Positions 35,387 through 45,377 of a DNA stretch of 47,879 nt are shown here, piece by piece. Origin of the DNA: a virus; IMG/VR virus record IMGVR_UViG_3300046804_001595, positions 1 to 47,879 of that record; one strand, written 5' to 3'. Within the stretch, counting starts at the first letter, position 1. Every line of letters starts with the position of its first letter. Below the pieces are notes generated by a model that had not been told where the DNA came from, searched no databases, and saw only the letters and a list, made by a program, of their open reading frames with translations. A program made the position numbers and the translations under genes.

Positions 35387-35599
35387 ATGGACAACATCGA
35401 CCAACACATTCAGAAAGATATGCAAATTCTGGATGATCCTCAAACATCTCCTCAAGCAAGAAGGCATACAGAGGAAGAACTTCAAGCACTTCAATCTTAT
35501 AAGGAACACCACCCAGAAGACACACATGATCCAACTTCATTAGAATTATATTGTGATTCCCATCCTGATGCACTTGAATGTAGAGTTTATGATGATTGA
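35387..35599 (+). CDS. cp12: CP12-like Calvin-cycle inhibitor
   Basis: 70 residues. The C-terminus LELYCDSHPDALECRVYDD matches the CP12 signature 'DPLexyCxxxPxxxECRxYDD', with the redox Cys pair at 56 and 65. 'TEEELQALQSYKEHHPEDTHD' matches the core VEELxAxxxHxK helix. The N-terminal Cys pair is absent, as in several cyanobacterial and phage forms. CP12 ties phosphoribulokinase to GAPDH and shuts the Calvin cycle; in cyanophages it redirects NADPH and carbon to the pentose-phosphate route for nucleotide synthesis. A late-type octamer lies upstream. It is not next to other carbon-metabolism genes here. Confidence 0.85.
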   Translation: MDNIDQHIQKDMQILDDPQTSPQARRHTEEELQALQSYKEHHPEDTHDPTSLELYCDSHPDALECRVYDD

Positions 35600-35611: not shown

Positions 35612-35657
35612 AACTGGAACATAGGGTCTTCCAATTTTCTGGGAGACCCTTTATAAT
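35612..35657 (+). promoter_or_regulatory. Box/stem-loop/-10 cassette 4 (PeSL-like)
   Basis: AACTGGAACA at 35612, hairpin AGGGTCTTCC / GGGAGACCCT at 35623-35650 (10 bp, 8-nt loop), then TATAAT at 35652-35657. Box to hexamer 40 nt. Also CCAGTT/AACTGG flank the box as a short inverted repeat. Starts the first methyltransferase cassette. Confidence 0.7.
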
Positions 35658-35678
35658 GTTTACATATACATTTGAACC

Positions 35679-36260
35679 ATGTTTGAACCAGTAGTTCCAT
35701 TTATCAAACACTATATTACAAAACACCACGAACTTTATAGTGGTCAATGTAAGGCAGAATATTGGGAGGAAATTCTTGCACGTTCTCTAAAAGAATCTGG
35801 GTTAGGTAGTGATTGGAAACCAGATTTTAATCATAAGTCTGGTGTTGATCAAACTATGGGCAATGGAATAAGAATTAGTAATAAAGGTGGATCAATTGAT
35901 AAAAATATTATTTCTTTTAGTGGATCACGTCTGACAAAGTATAAAACATTAAATGAAAAACTTGAATTTTTGAGTGATAAAAAAGAAGATTATATTCTTT
36001 GTCTTGCAACAGATAAAGATGAATGGAAGAAAGGATCTAAAAGATATTATTTCGTTGTAATTAATTCAGATACTTTAAACTATCACGAACAAGAATGGGA
36101 AGAAACATACGGACAACGGACAAATATTGGTCAACTTAATGGATGGAAATGTTCTTCCGAAGCATTTGATGCTAAAATTATCAGATCTAACTCTGATCAA
36201 CTCTGGACTGAAATGAAACTTGATTACTACGAAGAATTTTATGAAATTACTATTGGGTGA
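35679..36260 (+). CDS. Unknown partner of DNA methyltransferase, possible restriction-endonuclease-like protein
   Basis: 193 residues. It overlaps the methyltransferase start by 20 nt and lies directly behind a cassette promoter. Residues 52-71 (HKSGVDQTMGNGIRISNKGG) offer D57 and K69 as possible PD-(D/E)XK-type residues, with Ser instead of Asp/Glu two before the Lys. 'SFSGSRLTKYKTLNEKLEFL' and 'YILCLATDKDEW' follow. The 'K-(S/A)-GVD' box is shared with the partner of the second methyltransferase. Family not recognised; nuclease activity is an inference. Confidence 0.5.
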   Translation: MFEPVVPFIKHYITKHHELYSGQCKAEYWEEILARSLKESGLGSDWKPDFNHKSGVDQTMGNGIRISNKGGSIDKNIISFSGSRLTKYKTLNEKLEFLSDKKEDYILCLATDKDEWKKGSKRYYFVVINSDTLNYHEQEWEETYGQRTNIGQLNGWKCSSEAFDAKIIRSNSDQLWTEMKLDYYEEFYEITIG

Positions 36261-37005
36261 TTGTTTAGATATTTTACCAACACTTGCAGATAATTCTGTA
36301 GACATGGTGTTGGTAGATTTACCATATGGTACAACTGCCTGTAAATGGGATTCTATTATTCCCCTTGATAAATTGTGGGAGCAATATAATAGAATTTGTA
36401 AAGAGAATGGCGCAATGGTATTCACTGCCGCCCAACCTTTTACTACCATTCTTGCAGCATCAAATATTGATAATTTTCGTTATGAATGGATTTGGGAAAA
36501 ACCACAAGGAACAAATCCTATGAATTCAAAGGTTATGCCTTTGAAATCTCATGAAAATATCTTGGTGTTCTACCGTAAGAAGTGTACTTACAATCCTCAA
36601 ATGTGGTATTCCACTCCCTATAGTGGGTTTTCATCAAATGTTAGTAAAATTGGTGAAGTATATGGTAGTGCTCAATCAAAACATCGCCACAATCCAGAGG
36701 GTTCTAGATACCCTAAAACAGTTCTGAAATTTAAACAAGAAAAAGGTTTACATCCAACACAAAAACCTGTAGACCTTATAGAGTATTTGATTAAAACATA
36801 CACAAATTCTGGTGATGTTGTATTAGATAACACTATGGGTAGTGGAACAACTGGTGTTGCGGCAGTTCAATCTGGTCGTGATTTTATTGGTATTGAAATG
36901 GATGAAGAATACTATAAGATTGCAAAAGATCGCATAGAAGGTGCTGTGGCAGTTGATGGGGTGGCACAACAAACCTCAAATGCCCTGGTAGATGCCCTAT
37001 ACTGA
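36241..37005 (+). CDS. DNA N6-adenine/N4-cytosine methyltransferase (beta class), cassette 1
   Basis: 254 residues from ATG at 36241 (KLLLGDCLDILPTLADNSVD, the usual family start); an in-frame ATG at 36220 would add seven. Catalytic motif IV is DLPY (26-29), then 'HPTQKP' (171-176) and SAM-binding motif I 'DNTMGSGTTGVAA' (~196-208), followed by 'GIEMDEEYY'. Motif order IV-X-I is the beta class. Target sequence cannot be read. The tail after residue 235 carries a cassette promoter for the next genes. Confidence 0.85.
   Translation: MKLLLGDCLDILPTLADNSVDMVLVDLPYGTTACKWDSIIPLDKLWEQYNRICKENGAMVFTAAQPFTTILAASNIDNFRYEWIWEKPQGTNPMNSKVMPLKSHENILVFYRKKCTYNPQMWYSTPYSGFSSNVSKIGEVYGSAQSKHRHNPEGSRYPKTVLKFKQEKGLHPTQKPVDLIEYLIKTYTNSGDVVLDNTMGSGTTGVAAVQSGRDFIGIEMDEEYYKIAKDRIEGAVAVDGVAQQTSNALVDALY
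36959..37003 (+). promoter_or_regulatory. Box/-10 cassette 5 inside the methyltransferase end
   Basis: GGGTGGCACA at 36959 and TATACT at 36998: exactly 39 nt apart, although both lie in coding sequence. The downstream bases GACAAGGTACTCAA match the start regions of the cassettes at 40451 and 42072. No strong hairpin. Confidence 0.5.
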
Positions 37006-37028
37006 CAAGGTACTCAAGAAAACCACTT

Positions 37029-37262
37029 GTGGAACTCACCAAAGAAAACTATTGTGATCAGCAACCTGTCACAATGGAGTTTACTTACGAAGAACACGAT
37101 CTTCTGAACTCTATTTTGTGCCACGCATCAGATGGAATGTATCTTGCAATTCCTTGCATTTATGATGTTCCGAAAGATTCTGAAATTCGTCAACGATATG
37201 AGATGCTTGAGGAAATGCGGAATCGTTCTTATGATCTTTGGAAAACACGTTTTGGTAATTGA
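37029..37262 (+). CDS. Hypothetical protein
   Basis: 77 residues from GTG (ELTKENYCDQQPVTMEFTYE) or 62 from ATG at 37074. The GTG lies 25 nt after the cassette -10, and the AAGG of the start region could serve as a ribosome-binding site. Helical; unknown. Confidence 0.5.
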   Translation: MELTKENYCDQQPVTMEFTYEEHDLLNSILCHASDGMYLAIPCIYDVPKDSEIRQRYEMLEEMRNRSYDLWKTRFGN

Positions 37263-37264
37263 TT

Positions 37265-37534
37265 ATGAACTTCACTGATCTTAACTTTCATCCACACGGC
37301 AATATGCCAGATGGTATTGCGGCACGACACTTTTTTCCGAATGGATATGGTGTGAGTGTAGTACAGTTTCCTGGTTCTTATGGTTATGAAGAAGGACTGT
37401 ATGAGGTGGCAATTCTCAAAGGACTTGAAGAGGACTGGGAAATCTGCCATGATACTCCCATCACGGATGATGTAATTGGTCATCAATCCGTGGAGGATAT
37501 TGATAATCTTCTTTCACAAGTTGAATCTCTTTAA
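37265..37534 (+). CDS. Conserved phage hypothetical protein
   Basis: 89 residues (NFHPHGNMPDGIAARHFFPN, 'YGVSVVQFPGSYGYEEGLYE', 'TPITDDVIGHQSVEDI'). I recognise the 'FPNGYGxSVVxxxxSYGxxxGLYExAVL...TPITDDVxG' form as a widespread uncharacterised phage family, but know no function. Confidence 0.6.
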   Translation: MNFTDLNFHPHGNMPDGIAARHFFPNGYGVSVVQFPGSYGYEEGLYEVAILKGLEEDWEICHDTPITDDVIGHQSVEDIDNLLSQVESL

Positions 37535-37543
37535 TTCTGATTT

Positions 37544-37735
37544 ATGAAAACTTCTACTGCTCTTGGTTTTGCTTTTGGTGTAATTGTTCTTGTTGTTGCT
37601 GGACTTCTTTTTGAAGCATGGTTACTTGGAGTGATTCTATCTTGGTTTGGTGTTAATTTTACGATCTGGCAAACTTTTGCTATGGTCTTTCTTGCTAATC
37701 TTATTTTCAAAAATACTGGAGTATCTTCTAAATGA
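37544..37735 (+). CDS. Small membrane protein, two transmembrane helices
   Basis: 63 residues, hydrophobic nearly throughout (FAFGVIVLVVAGLLFEAWLL, 'WQTFAMVFLANLIF'), with a short loop between helices. Holin-like in size, but no lysis gene adjoins. It overlaps the SPFH-like gene by 4 nt, suggesting a shared membrane role. Confidence 0.55.
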   Translation: MKTSTALGFAFGVIVLVVAGLLFEAWLLGVILSWFGVNFTIWQTFAMVFLANLIFKNTGVSSK

Positions 37736-38139
37736 AAAATCAAAATGGATTTATTGATCCCACTGTAGCACTTGTTGTTCTTGGTGTGGGTGTATTTGCT
37801 GGTCTAGTCTTCATTGGTGGTCCACAATACAATGTGTGGCAACAATCTCTTGCTGGTAAGGCAGAATTACAGAAAGCAGAATACACTCGCCAGGTAGCAG
37901 TTCTTGAAGCACAAGCAAAGAAAGATAGTGCTCAACAACTTGCTGATGCTGAAATCATCCGTGCTACTGGTGTTGCCAAAGCAAACCAAATCATTGGTGA
38001 TTCACTGAAAGACAATCGTGAGTATCTTCAGTATCTGTATATCACTGGTCTGGAAGATGGTAGTAAGAATGGAAACGTGACCATTTATGTACCCACCGAA
38101 GGTGGAATGCCCGTTCCTACACTTCAGATGAACAAATGA
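37732..38139 (+). CDS. SPFH/band-7-like membrane protein fragment
   Basis: 135 residues: one N-terminal transmembrane helix (VALVVLGVGVFAGLVFIGG), then a coiled coil (KAELQKAEYTRQVAVLEAQA) and 'DAEIIRATGVAKANQIIGDS' with 'NREYLQYLYITGL' and 'VTIYVPTEGGMPVPT'. This is the C-terminal half of stomatin/prohibitin (SPFH) proteins; the SPFH head domain is missing. Phage homologues are known in cyanomyoviruses. It may protect or remodel host membrane complexes. Confidence 0.6.
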   Translation: MKNQNGFIDPTVALVVLGVGVFAGLVFIGGPQYNVWQQSLAGKAELQKAEYTRQVAVLEAQAKKDSAQQLADAEIIRATGVAKANQIIGDSLKDNREYLQYLYITGLEDGSKNGNVTIYVPTEGGMPVPTLQMNK

Positions 38140-38783
38140 CCTACACAGTACAACGTCCTTTTCTCAAGAATCACAAAGTTCATGATTTTCATCAATCTCT
38201 TTCTAAAGAAAAGAGAATTATTGAAAACGGAGAACACCTTTCGGTTATTAATCAATTGAATCTTGAGTTTGAAAAACTTGGACTGAGAATTGACTTTAAT
38301 ACTTTTGAAGATAACTATGGAACTGACAGTTTATCTCAATTCAAAAACAAAGCAGGTGTTGATGCTACGTTTAACTTAATCTCCATTAAATCTGGAAACA
38401 TTGTAAAAGAAGGATTTACGATTGATTATAAGTTTCGTGATCCTAATGCAGTATGGGATGACTTTTTAGCAGAAACTGTAAGTCAAGATTTTATTCGGTT
38501 CAATTCTAAAAAACCAATTGTTCAGGGATGGGCAATTTGCAAACACAAGATCAATGATGCTATACTTTATATTCTTCCCTACCATAAAAAAGCAACTCTT
38601 GTAATGCGTGAAGAATTAAAGAAGGGATTTGAAAAGAATCGTTTCCCTCTTGATGATCGTCGTCGTAAGATTGCAAAAAATAAAGGTTGGGACACTATCA
38701 GTTATGTGATTGATTGGAATCGCCTAACTAAAGTATGTCCAAGCACAATTATATTCAACTATGAGTCATGTAAAACTTTATAA
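38136..38783 (+). CDS. PD-(D/E)XK nuclease-like partner of second DNA methyltransferase
   Basis: 215 residues, overlapping the methyltransferase start by 23 nt. Residues 72-99 (KAGVDATFN ... GFTIDYKFRD) give D76, then 20 residues, then D97-Y98-K99, a canonical D-X20-(D/E)-X-K metal site. A helical 'AETVSQDFIRF' and strand 'VQGWAICK' follow, as in the nuclease fold. The adjacent methyltransferase would protect phage DNA. So this pair could be a compact restriction-modification unit. The residues are seen; cutting activity is inferred. Confidence 0.55.
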   Translation: MTYTVQRPFLKNHKVHDFHQSLSKEKRIIENGEHLSVINQLNLEFEKLGLRIDFNTFEDNYGTDSLSQFKNKAGVDATFNLISIKSGNIVKEGFTIDYKFRDPNAVWDDFLAETVSQDFIRFNSKKPIVQGWAICKHKINDAILYILPYHKKATLVMREELKKGFEKNRFPLDDRRRKIAKNKGWDTISYVIDWNRLTKVCPSTIIFNYESCKTL

Positions 38784-39435
38784 CGAAGACTGTATGAATG
38801 TACTCCCGTCTCTTGCAGATGGGAGTATTTCCCTTACTCTCACAGATATACCTTATGATGAGGTGAATCGTAAGAGTGGTGGATTAAGAAATCTGGATAA
38901 AAGTCACGCAGATATTATCACATTTCCACTTGATGAGTTTATTGATGAAGTTGTAAGAGTAACTTCTGGGAGCATTTATATTTTCTGTGGATCAGTTCAA
39001 GTCTCACATATTCGCAACAGATTGATAGAGTACGGTTTATCTGTGAGACACTGTATATGGGAGAAAACTAATCCTTCTCCTATGAATGGTCAATATATCT
39101 GGCTTTCAAGTATAGAGAATTGTGTGTTTGCCAAAAAGTCTGGTGCAACATTTAATGAGCATTGTAAGTCTGCAGTGTGGCGTTCTCCAACTGAAAGATA
39201 CAAGGATCATCCAACACCAAAACCAGTCAAGTTAATGGAAAGATTGATTGAAGCAAGTTCTAACGTAGGTGATACTGTCTTAGATCCTTGTATGGGAAGC
39301 GGTGCAATTGGTGTTGCTGCTAAACAATGTGGTAGAAACTTTATTGGTATTGAAATGAATGCCGATTACTTTAAATTGACCGAAGAAAGAATTAACAGTC
39401 AAAGTAACAGCATTCTATCTTTCATGGACAGATAA
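38761..39435 (+). CDS. DNA N6-adenine/N4-cytosine methyltransferase (beta class), cassette 2
   Basis: 224 residues: motif IV DIPY (29-32), 'FCGSVQVSHIRN', 'HPTPKP' (150-155), SAM-binding 'DTVLDPCMGSGAIGVAAKQC' (171-190) and 'FIGIEMNADYF'. The first methyltransferase is a distant relative with DLPY and TMGSGTTG, so the two likely recognise different sites. Coupled to the PD-(D/E)XK-like gene upstream; the next element is a cassette promoter. Confidence 0.85.
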   Translation: MSHVKLYNEDCMNVLPSLADGSISLTLTDIPYDEVNRKSGGLRNLDKSHADIITFPLDEFIDEVVRVTSGSIYIFCGSVQVSHIRNRLIEYGLSVRHCIWEKTNPSPMNGQYIWLSSIENCVFAKKSGATFNEHCKSAVWRSPTERYKDHPTPKPVKLMERLIEASSNVGDTVLDPCMGSGAIGVAAKQCGRNFIGIEMNADYFKLTEERINSQSNSILSFMDR

Positions 39436-39437
39436 AA

Positions 39438-39482
39438 AACTGGTACATAGGGGCATCTGGAGCGATCTGGATGCCCTATAAT
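39438..39482 (+). promoter_or_regulatory. Box/stem-loop/-10 cassette 6 (PeSL-like)
   Basis: AACTGGTACA at 39438, hairpin GGGCATC / GATGCCC at 39451-39476, TATAAT directly after at 39477. Box to hexamer 39 nt. The downstream ACTTTCATACACAAG resembles cassettes 1-3. Confidence 0.7.
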
Positions 39483-39509
39483 ACTTTCATACACAAGGGA
39501 ACCAACCCC

Positions 39510-44175: not shown

Positions 44176-44634
44176 ATGAAGACGTTTCAAGAGTTTCAGG
44201 AAAGTTATCGTGATCTCTCTGCCAGAGGTGGATTTGATCCAAGATTTGATCGTAAAGGAAAACCAGATCTAGAACGCGGACCAAACCGTTGGACAATCCC
44301 AGATCGTTCACCAACTCTTGGTATGGATAAAATGGCAAGAACACAATATAATGCAAGAGAAAGAATGCTCAGAAAATCTCCTTTAGGCACTACACCAGCA
44401 AGAGAACCAGTCGGTGAATCCAAAGGTGACGGTGCATCTCCTTATGAAGTCTACAAACCAAAACCACAACCAACAAATACTACACCACCACCTGCCGACT
44501 TCAGAGACAAGTATCTTCCAAAACAAACCAAACAGGCACAATTAGTTCCGCCGAAAACAAATACTCCTCTTGATCTTAGAAATCCTGGTGAAAAATTACG
44601 TGCTCTTCAAATTCTAAGAAAGCAACAAGGTTAG
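44176..44634 (+). CDS. Candidate capsid-targeted internal protein, MKTFQEFQES start
   Basis: 152 residues. MKTFQEFQESYRD is nearly the capsid-targeting peptide of T4 internal proteins (MKTYQEFIAEA); here gp21-type cleavage could follow the Glu of FQE|S. The rest is basic, Pro-rich and probably disordered (RKGKPDLERGPNRW, 'PKPQPTNTTPPPADFRDKYL'), fitting a packaged and injected protein. The late-type octamer upstream supports virion expression. Its end overlaps the convergent minus-strand gene by 4 nt. Confidence 0.6.
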   Translation: MKTFQEFQESYRDLSARGGFDPRFDRKGKPDLERGPNRWTIPDRSPTLGMDKMARTQYNARERMLRKSPLGTTPAREPVGESKGDGASPYEVYKPKPQPTNTTPPPADFRDKYLPKQTKQAQLVPPKTNTPLDLRNPGEKLRALQILRKQQG

Positions 44635-45377
44635 TTACGAACGTAAAACCACCAAGATCCTTTCCATGTATATTTTCCAGGATTCTTTAAACTCCTAAGA
44701 ATCCCTTGTTTATCTGTTGTTTCAAATGCTCTTAGTGCGGCATTTATACTCTCATACCGAACTTCAATCTGTTCGGTTTTTTTATTAACTGAAAATACTG
44801 CTCTTTTCTGATCTTTTTCTTCTATAATTTTCCATTTATGTCCATATGCAGTTCTACCTGTACGTGCTGCAAGTATAATGTTTGAATTGTTAATTGCTTT
44901 ACCAGTAACTTGTTCTGCTGCAACTCTTGCACTTTCATAGTCAGTGCATAGTCCAGTTTCTAGATTTTTACCACGTATCTTAAATCCAAAGTGTTTACCA
45001 TTTCCACGATTCTCTTCATTCCATTGAATAAGGTGTGGTGCCGCTTTGTATGAACGTGGTTTCTTTTCTTCTTTTTTTATTTCTTTAATTTCAACTGGTT
45101 GTATTACTTGTTTAATTATGTTATATTCTGGTTTATATTTTTCTATCCAATAGTTTGTTTTTGATTCAAATTCAGATTCATCACATTCATCCAGTTCTTT
45201 AATCATAAAATTGTGTATACCATACTCTCTGAATGCTTTATGTAATGGTTCAGAGGACATTCTTTTAGATTTCTCTATGTGTTGTACCCATTCCTTGTTC
45301 ATTGCAAGTGTGGTATTTCCTATGTACTTGTGTTCATTCTGTTTGTTGAGAATAAGGTAGATAATTCCTCTTTTCAT
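44631..45377 (-). CDS. GIY-YIG family endonuclease
   Basis: 248 residues, the only gene on the minus strand. GIIYLILNKQNEHKYIGNTT is the GIY-YIG core, followed by 'EWVQHIEKSKRMSSEPLHKA', the conserved Arg/His helix, and 'WIEKYKPEYNI' as in Seg-type nucleases. The C-terminal half has NUMOD/helix-type repeats ('DYESARVAAEQVTGKAINNS', 'YESINAALRAFETTDKQG') that bind DNA. No intron is visible around it, so it is likely a free-standing mobile nuclease. Opposite direction and convergent end suggest an insertion. Confidence 0.85.
   Translation of the reverse strand: MKRGIIYLILNKQNEHKYIGNTTLAMNKEWVQHIEKSKRMSSEPLHKAFREYGIHNFMIKELDECDESEFESKTNYWIEKYKPEYNIIKQVIQPVEIKEIKKEEKKPRSYKAAPHLIQWNEENRGNGKHFGFKIRGKNLETGLCTDYESARVAAEQVTGKAINNSNIILAARTGRTAYGHKWKIIEEKDQKRAVFSVNKKTEQIEVRYESINAALRAFETTDKQGILRSLKNPGKYTWKGSWWFYVRN

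Follow-up and report, generated by a model that had tools for sequence, protein, structure and literature searches.

Why would a lytic virus carry two DNA methyltransferase genes, each of which begins inside the end of a gene for an unrecognized protein? This arrangement is found in IMG/VR virus record IMGVR_UViG_3300046804_001595, which was analyzed over its entire length of 47,879 bases (hereafter the window). Stretches of this contig resemble the Synechococcus myoviruses S-PM2, S-SRM01, and S-SZBM1 at 75%–88% nucleotide identity, and a gene for a CP12-like carbon-metabolism regulator (35387–35599) lies immediately 5′ of the first gene pair. Because of these matches and the CP12 gene, the contig most likely represents part of the genome of a T4-like cyanophage. 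We consider it probable that each gene pair is a compact type II restriction–modification (R–M) unit of this lytic cyanophage, whose nuclease would cut unmarked DNA of the host, of competitors, or of both. Restriction is normally described as an anti-phage defense. Two complete type II R–M units are unusual in a lytic phage, and here the virus may be turning a bacterial-style immune weapon on its host or its rivals.

All four genes of the two cassettes are located on the plus strand. The first cassette consists of P1 (35679–36260, 193 amino acids) and M1 (36241–37005, 254 amino acids), and the second of P2 (38136–38783, 215 amino acids) and M2 (38761–39435, 224 amino acids). The M1 start codon at 36241 lies 20 nt inside P1, and the M2 start codon at 38761 lies 23 nt inside P2, exactly as had been proposed in a preliminary description of this DNA. 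The same description had assigned both methyltransferases to the beta class, and this assignment holds. Motif IV (DLPY in M1, 36316–36327; DIPY in M2, 38845–38856) precedes motif I (TMGSGTTG in M1, 36832–36855; CMGSGAIG in M2, 39289–39312), which is the beta order, and the Pfam N6_N4_Mtase model (PF01555) matches M1 at E 2e-32 and M2 at E 4e-29. M1 also matches PHROG 67 at E 3e-81. The catalytic and S-adenosylmethionine-binding motifs are intact in both proteins, the relatives of which include the solved structures MboIIA, CcrM, and DpnA. The record encodes no PF01555 methyltransferase other than M1 and M2. The order of the genes, with the putative restriction gene first and an overlapping stop and start, suggests that the two proteins of each cassette are translationally coupled.

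Relatives of P2 with 58%–90% identity were gathered from IMG/VR, and their alignment was used for folding with AlphaFold 2 (AF2). The resulting model has a mean predicted local distance difference test score (pLDDT) of 76.9 and a predicted template modeling score (pTM) of 0.78; the N terminus is modeled poorly. When the model is compared with known structures by VIA-align, the first 20 rows are members of the PD-(D/E)XK superfamily and the first unrelated protein appears at Z 4.6, which is consistent with the core fold of this superfamily even though every single Z-score is below 8. The best rows are the homing endonuclease I-Ssp6803I (Z 6.6, root-mean-square deviation [rmsd] 4.0, 125 aligned residues), the SPARDA nuclease (6.2), 3ndh (5.9), Hjc (5.8), HinP1I (5.7), and RecU/PrfA (∼5). 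The predicted site reads G74-x-D76-x20-D97-(Y/W)-K99, and D76 (codon 38361–38363), D97, and K99 (D97-Y98-K99 codons, 38424–38432) are invariant in 17 sequences. The two acids and the lysine of the D-X20-D-Y-K metal site that had been noticed earlier are retained by all of these relatives, and both G-[VI]-D and D-Y/W-K persist in a shorter relative with 35% identity (locus L112). The gene is under purifying selection, with a median ratio of nonsynonymous to synonymous substitution rates (dN/dS) of 0.18.

P1 was modeled in the same manner from IMG/VR relatives with 50%–97% identity, yielding a mean pLDDT of 88.7 and a pTM of 0.85. The 46 leading rows of the VIA-align comparison are PD-(D/E)XK nucleases, nearly all of them restriction enzymes, and unrelated proteins appear from Z 4.8. 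Again the core fold is recovered with single Z-scores below 8, the best rows being the N-terminal domain of Eco15I (Z 7.1, rmsd 3.9, 112 aligned residues), NhoI (7.0), DpnI (6.7), HinP1I (6.5), and EcoRV (6.5). The site is G55-x-D57 followed by (S/G)67-N68-K69, in which D57 (codon 35847–35849), N68, and K69 (S67-N68-K69 codons, 35877–35885) are invariant in 18 sequences. E30-E31 in the preceding helix are likewise conserved. The K-(S/A)-GVD box once proposed for both partners holds for P2 as G-[VI]-D, whereas only G-x-D is conserved among the relatives of P1. Purifying selection also acts on P1, which has a median dN/dS of 0.23.

Neither partner yields a significant match in Pfam, PHROGs, NCBIfam, PADLOC, or the PDB (phmmer), and none of P1, P2, and two divergent relatives of P2 has a tblastn match among 50,697 phage records. 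P1 is present in 0 of 84,980 species genomes. P2 is found in these genomes on a single contig that carries phage clamp-loader genes and was binned in a Bacteriovorax metagenome-assembled genome. Both families therefore appear to be phage-restricted as far as this search reaches, which is to fairly close relatives. No report of these gene pairs in cyanophages was found in the open-access literature. P1 and P2 thus represent two nuclease families unrecognized in the searched libraries, and are candidate new restriction enzymes. A helicase or other additional recognized domain is absent from P1, P2, M1, and M2, and so the predicted units include no ATP-dependent translocase or specificity subunit.

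The strongest test of the R–M hypothesis that comparison of loci provides is the gene context of M1. Of 477 M1 matches, the best 80 were surveyed, giving 59 distinct loci with upstream sequence, and the counts hold for close relatives. In 59 of the 59, the end of a nuclease gene coincides with the M1 start or lies no more than ∼20 bases from it. This nuclease is P1 in 10 loci, and in the other 49 it is a member of PHROG 6927, a family of unknown function in PHROGs. Its proteins have ∼178 amino acids with invariant D69 and E78-x-K80, and match PDLC03515, the PADLOC model for a type II restriction enzyme, with E-values between 1e-11 and 1e-6. One member, PSSM7_054 of Prochlorococcus phage P-SSM7, adjoins two dam genes, and a relative with 31% identity in S-BM3 bears the annotation “restriction endonuclease.” The family matches no plasmid sequence.

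Like P1, the PHROG 6927 nuclease usually overlaps the methyltransferase start with its stop, but the overlap is usually 4 nt rather than 20 nt and there is no detectable homology between the two proteins. Searches with P1 gave no hit to the PHROG 6927/PDLC03515 family, and the hhalign probability is 0.6%. Common ancestry of P1, P2, and the PHROG 6927 partner is likewise unsupported by hhalign, although the three may be remotely related within the superfamily. Partner exchange in type II R–M systems would be expected to produce such a pattern, in which a single methyltransferase lineage has alternative and apparently unrelated nucleases at one position. These loci may therefore constitute a natural experiment on how an R–M unit exchanges its partner without killing the carrier.

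In most P1 loci, P1 is followed by M1. An HNH-type gene is inserted between the two in L034/L035 and L012–L014 (for example, L034:5644–6261 and L012:5659–6309). In L034, the old 5′ end of M1 is left upstream of the HNH gene and a replacement 5′ end follows it, which suggests that the insertion is a homing element carrying a substitute gene end. Elsewhere, P1 is followed by a different DNA methyltransferase (L037; PF01555 E 3e-7) or by a short open reading frame only (L016).

As for the second cassette, M2 is located directly 3′ of P2 in 24 of 24 P2 loci with downstream sequence, some of which are near-identical contigs, and the two genes overlap by the 8-nt sequence ATGAGTGA in all 23 distinct loci measured. 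The 23-nt overlap is unique to the window genome, where one changed base (TGA to TCA) adds five codons to P2. The arrangement recurs in every one of the 24 P2 loci and in the majority of P1 loci, which places it, by this comparison of genomes, far beyond chance. In the window, a protease-family gene (PHROG 11227; 37732–38139, plus strand) precedes P2, and its stop overlaps the P2 start (ATGA). The counterpart of this gene is followed directly by M2, with no P2, in L080, L081, and L089. Because of these empty sites, P2 appears to be gained or lost as a unit.

Several findings weigh against the R–M hypothesis. No structural match to P1 or P2 reaches a Z-score of 8, and the best Foldseek E-value is 7e-3. 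P1 also departs from the canonical D..(D/E)-x-K pattern: at position 67, which is usually D or E in the superfamily, all 18 relatives have S or G. Some nucleases lack an adjacent methyltransferase: P1 stands without one in a 464-kb phage contig (L010), as does the PHROG 6927 nuclease (72%–75% identity) in S-SSM4 and ACG-2014f, each of which encodes an N6/N4 methyltransferase elsewhere in its genome. In S-ShM2, which carries a 31%-identical relative of this nuclease, no PF01555 methyltransferase was found. Of the 45 distinct M2 loci whose upstream sequence is long enough, 23 have P2 and 22 lack it. A solitary role is possible for a PHROG 6927 nuclease without an adjacent methyltransferase. This nuclease or its 31%-identical relative adjoins a helicase in S-SSM4 (L203) and S-ShM2 (L205); the ACG-2014f locus is L204.

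With regard to the fold, it is the consistency of the superfamily matches, not any single modest score, that argues for P1 and P2 being nucleases. The missing acid of P1 probably weighs more on activity than on fold, because the PD-(D/E)XK motif is known to occur in many variations (PMC4081073). The model of P1 thus points to a nuclease fold with a noncanonical site. P1 is likely to be active, though with less certainty than P2, in which the fold is predicted and the D..(D/E)-x-K pattern is complete. The preliminary description had read the cassettes as compact type II units, and the predicted folds, conserved residues, and linkage support this reading. Its three named grounds for rejection were folds unrelated to nucleases, an absence of conserved catalytic residues, and homologs usually found without a methyltransferase. 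The structural matches are mostly PD-(D/E)XK restriction enzymes, a homing endonuclease, and Holliday resolvases; catalytic residues are fully conserved in P2 and partly in P1; and a methyltransferase adjoins every P2 examined and nearly all P1 genes, with L010 as the clear exception. The anti-restriction or modification factors that it had offered as alternatives are judged less likely.

The favored scheme is one in which P1 and P2 are small PD-(D/E)XK endonucleases that would cut DNA at a short specific site, and M1 and M2 are N6-adenine or N4-cytosine methyltransferases that would mark the same site as the partner nuclease and so protect the phage genome. Phage DNA would already be methylated on leaving the previous cell, such that the nuclease made during infection would cut only unmarked DNA. 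Its targets might be the host chromosome, for nucleotide recycling and shut-off, or competing phages, or both. Cleavage, the shared site, the timing, and the biological target are the parts of this scheme that we infer.

As in bacterial type II systems, adjacent genes encode a separate endonuclease with the PD-(D/E)XK fold and an N6/N4 methyltransferase, but the window units reside on a lytic phage and their nucleases have no family match. There is viral precedent for use against host DNA or competitors. In chloroviruses (CviAI, CviAII, CviJI, and others), companion endonuclease and methyltransferase genes are always adjacent, and the packaged nucleases are believed to break down the DNA of the host (PMC7019647). 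These pairs are virus-encoded like those of the window, but they belong to viruses of eukaryotic algae, and the likeness is drawn from gene arrangement. The GATC system of Marseillevirus (mel_015/mel_016) is likewise a complete viral pair, although it differs in its known specificity and amoebal host. Host DNA is not degraded in that case, and the system was proposed to be a weapon against co-infecting viruses (PMC7253447).

Could P1 and P2 instead be free-standing homing endonucleases that spread by cutting partner-free alleles, next to a methyltransferase that is an orphan counter-defense gene? The best structural match of P2, I-Ssp6803I, is a PD-(D/E)XK homing endonuclease (tied with others), empty sites with the same neighbors exist, and sister units have been invaded by HNH genes. 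However, the gene directly 3′ of P2 is always the same M2, the 8-nt overlap of the two is fixed, and the slot before M1 is filled by a nuclease in every close locus, mostly from the family that matches a type II restriction enzyme model. A homing gene needs no co-translated methyltransferase, and empty sites are equally expected if a restriction gene is lost and its methyltransferase kept. We therefore regard this explanation as unlikely.

It is also improbable that the units are genuine R–M systems that act mainly as selfish addiction cassettes, maintaining themselves in phage genomes rather than serving as weapons. Their patchy distribution, the exchange of nuclease partners, the empty sites, and the partner-free methyltransferases would all fit such a role, but a lytic phage offers little room for post-segregational killing. 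Finally, the proposal that P1 and P2 are nuclease-fold proteins that do not cut, but assist the methyltransferase, as accessory or target-recognition partners, or act as anti-restriction decoys, is favored by the missing second acid of P1 and by the many partnerless methyltransferases of phages, yet it is very improbable given that the P2 triad is complete and invariant, that D57 and K69 of P1 are invariant in relatives down to ∼50% identity, and that M1 has partners from two unrelated families, which speaks against their being a dedicated cofactor.

How the methyltransferase of a type II unit is made may vary among the relatives of M1. The window gene is uninterrupted and reads D-L-P-Y-G-T-T-A-C-K-W through motif IV. 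In sister units (L012–L014, L034/L035, and others) the gene is split inside this motif, after DLPY, by four nucleotides at the G-T junction (GGT-TAGC-AC); in L034, TAGC is carried by the replacement 5′ end that follows the HNH gene. A scan of the viral collection for the TAGC pattern returned 14 contigs, and a scan with four free bases returned 13 contigs, all with TAGC. Random 4-nt indels or sequencing errors are ruled out by the latter result. The interrupted loci include L047 and L049–L060 (e.g., L056:8914–8943, plus strand) and represent nine distinct genes or units. Reading frames are open on both sides of the insert, and dN/dS beyond it is ∼0.05–0.15, like that of intact M1 genes. A changed genetic code in which TAG specifies a residue is ruled out since the frame is also shifted, and no UAG suppressor tRNA was seen by ARAGORN in 11 loci, which are fragments. 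The nine genes are scattered on a tree of the downstream part (7 changes), with no bootstrap tree uniting them in a single clade, and they occur in units with either P1 or the PHROG 6927 nuclease, with or without an HNH gene.

The RNA preceding the insert is predicted to be structured. All 10 interrupted genes can form a helix of 7–11 Watson–Crick pairs between the bases just 5′ of GGT and a segment ∼100 nt upstream, whereas the best equivalent helix has 2–5 pairs in 25 of 27 intact genes. Covariation was assessed with eight distinct arm pairs, extracted by hand, and 500 shuffles. Four base pairs are changed on both sides, and the score exceeds those of all 500 shuffles and is lost when the partner is slid. 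The RNA forms a Y-shaped three-way junction closed by the covarying stem in nine of the 10 genes, and a single long stem in L048. Fold z-scores are −3.0 to −6.7 for five TAGC genes, −1.1 to −2.3 for five intact relatives, and −3.5 for the window.

Selection on the frame beyond TAGC, together with a covarying three-way-junction RNA that abuts the site, suggests that translation gets past the insert in a programmed manner, through either a short bypass or a +1 shift. Both a 4-nt hop and a +1 shift that adds one Ser would fit these genes. The resemblance to T4 gene 60 is close: the TAGC genes have a proposed GGU take-off codon, an in-frame stop, and an RNA structure abutting that codon; in T4, a Gly take-off codon is followed by UAG, with a stimulatory 5′ stem–loop and a homing endonuclease gene located 5′ (PMC5009743). 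Counterparts of gene 60 bypassing over shorter distances have been presumed (PMC5009743), and the TAGC genes are a testable candidate for them. If the hypothesis is true, TAGC recoding would be a natural equivalent of gene 60 bypassing on a short scale. The broader proposal is that of a modular offensive R–M system, in which one methyltransferase lineage is combined with interchangeable phage-restricted nucleases, and sister methyltransferases are made only via programmed TAGC recoding aided by the three-way-junction RNA. We see this combined proposal as evenly poised between being right and wrong. A group I intron (Rfam RF00028, 77 bits) was also observed downstream of the interrupted gene in L060 (3802–4027, minus strand), in a tRNA-bearing stretch.

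Two intergenic elements flank the cassette region of the window, at 35623–35666 and 39451–39491. Each is an inverted repeat followed directly by TATAATRYTTWCAT; this combination is exact at both sites and has no further mismatch-free copy in the window. The elements are possibly terminators coupled with promoters. When the surroundings of the cassettes were scanned for promoters and terminators, these were no more frequent than in shuffles, and the combination of a hairpin and a TATAAT motif is not enriched over shuffles within the window. Farther downstream, an open reading frame at 44631–45377 (minus strand) resembles GIY-YIG endonucleases, scoring 22.5 bits against a Pfam cut-off of 22.6.

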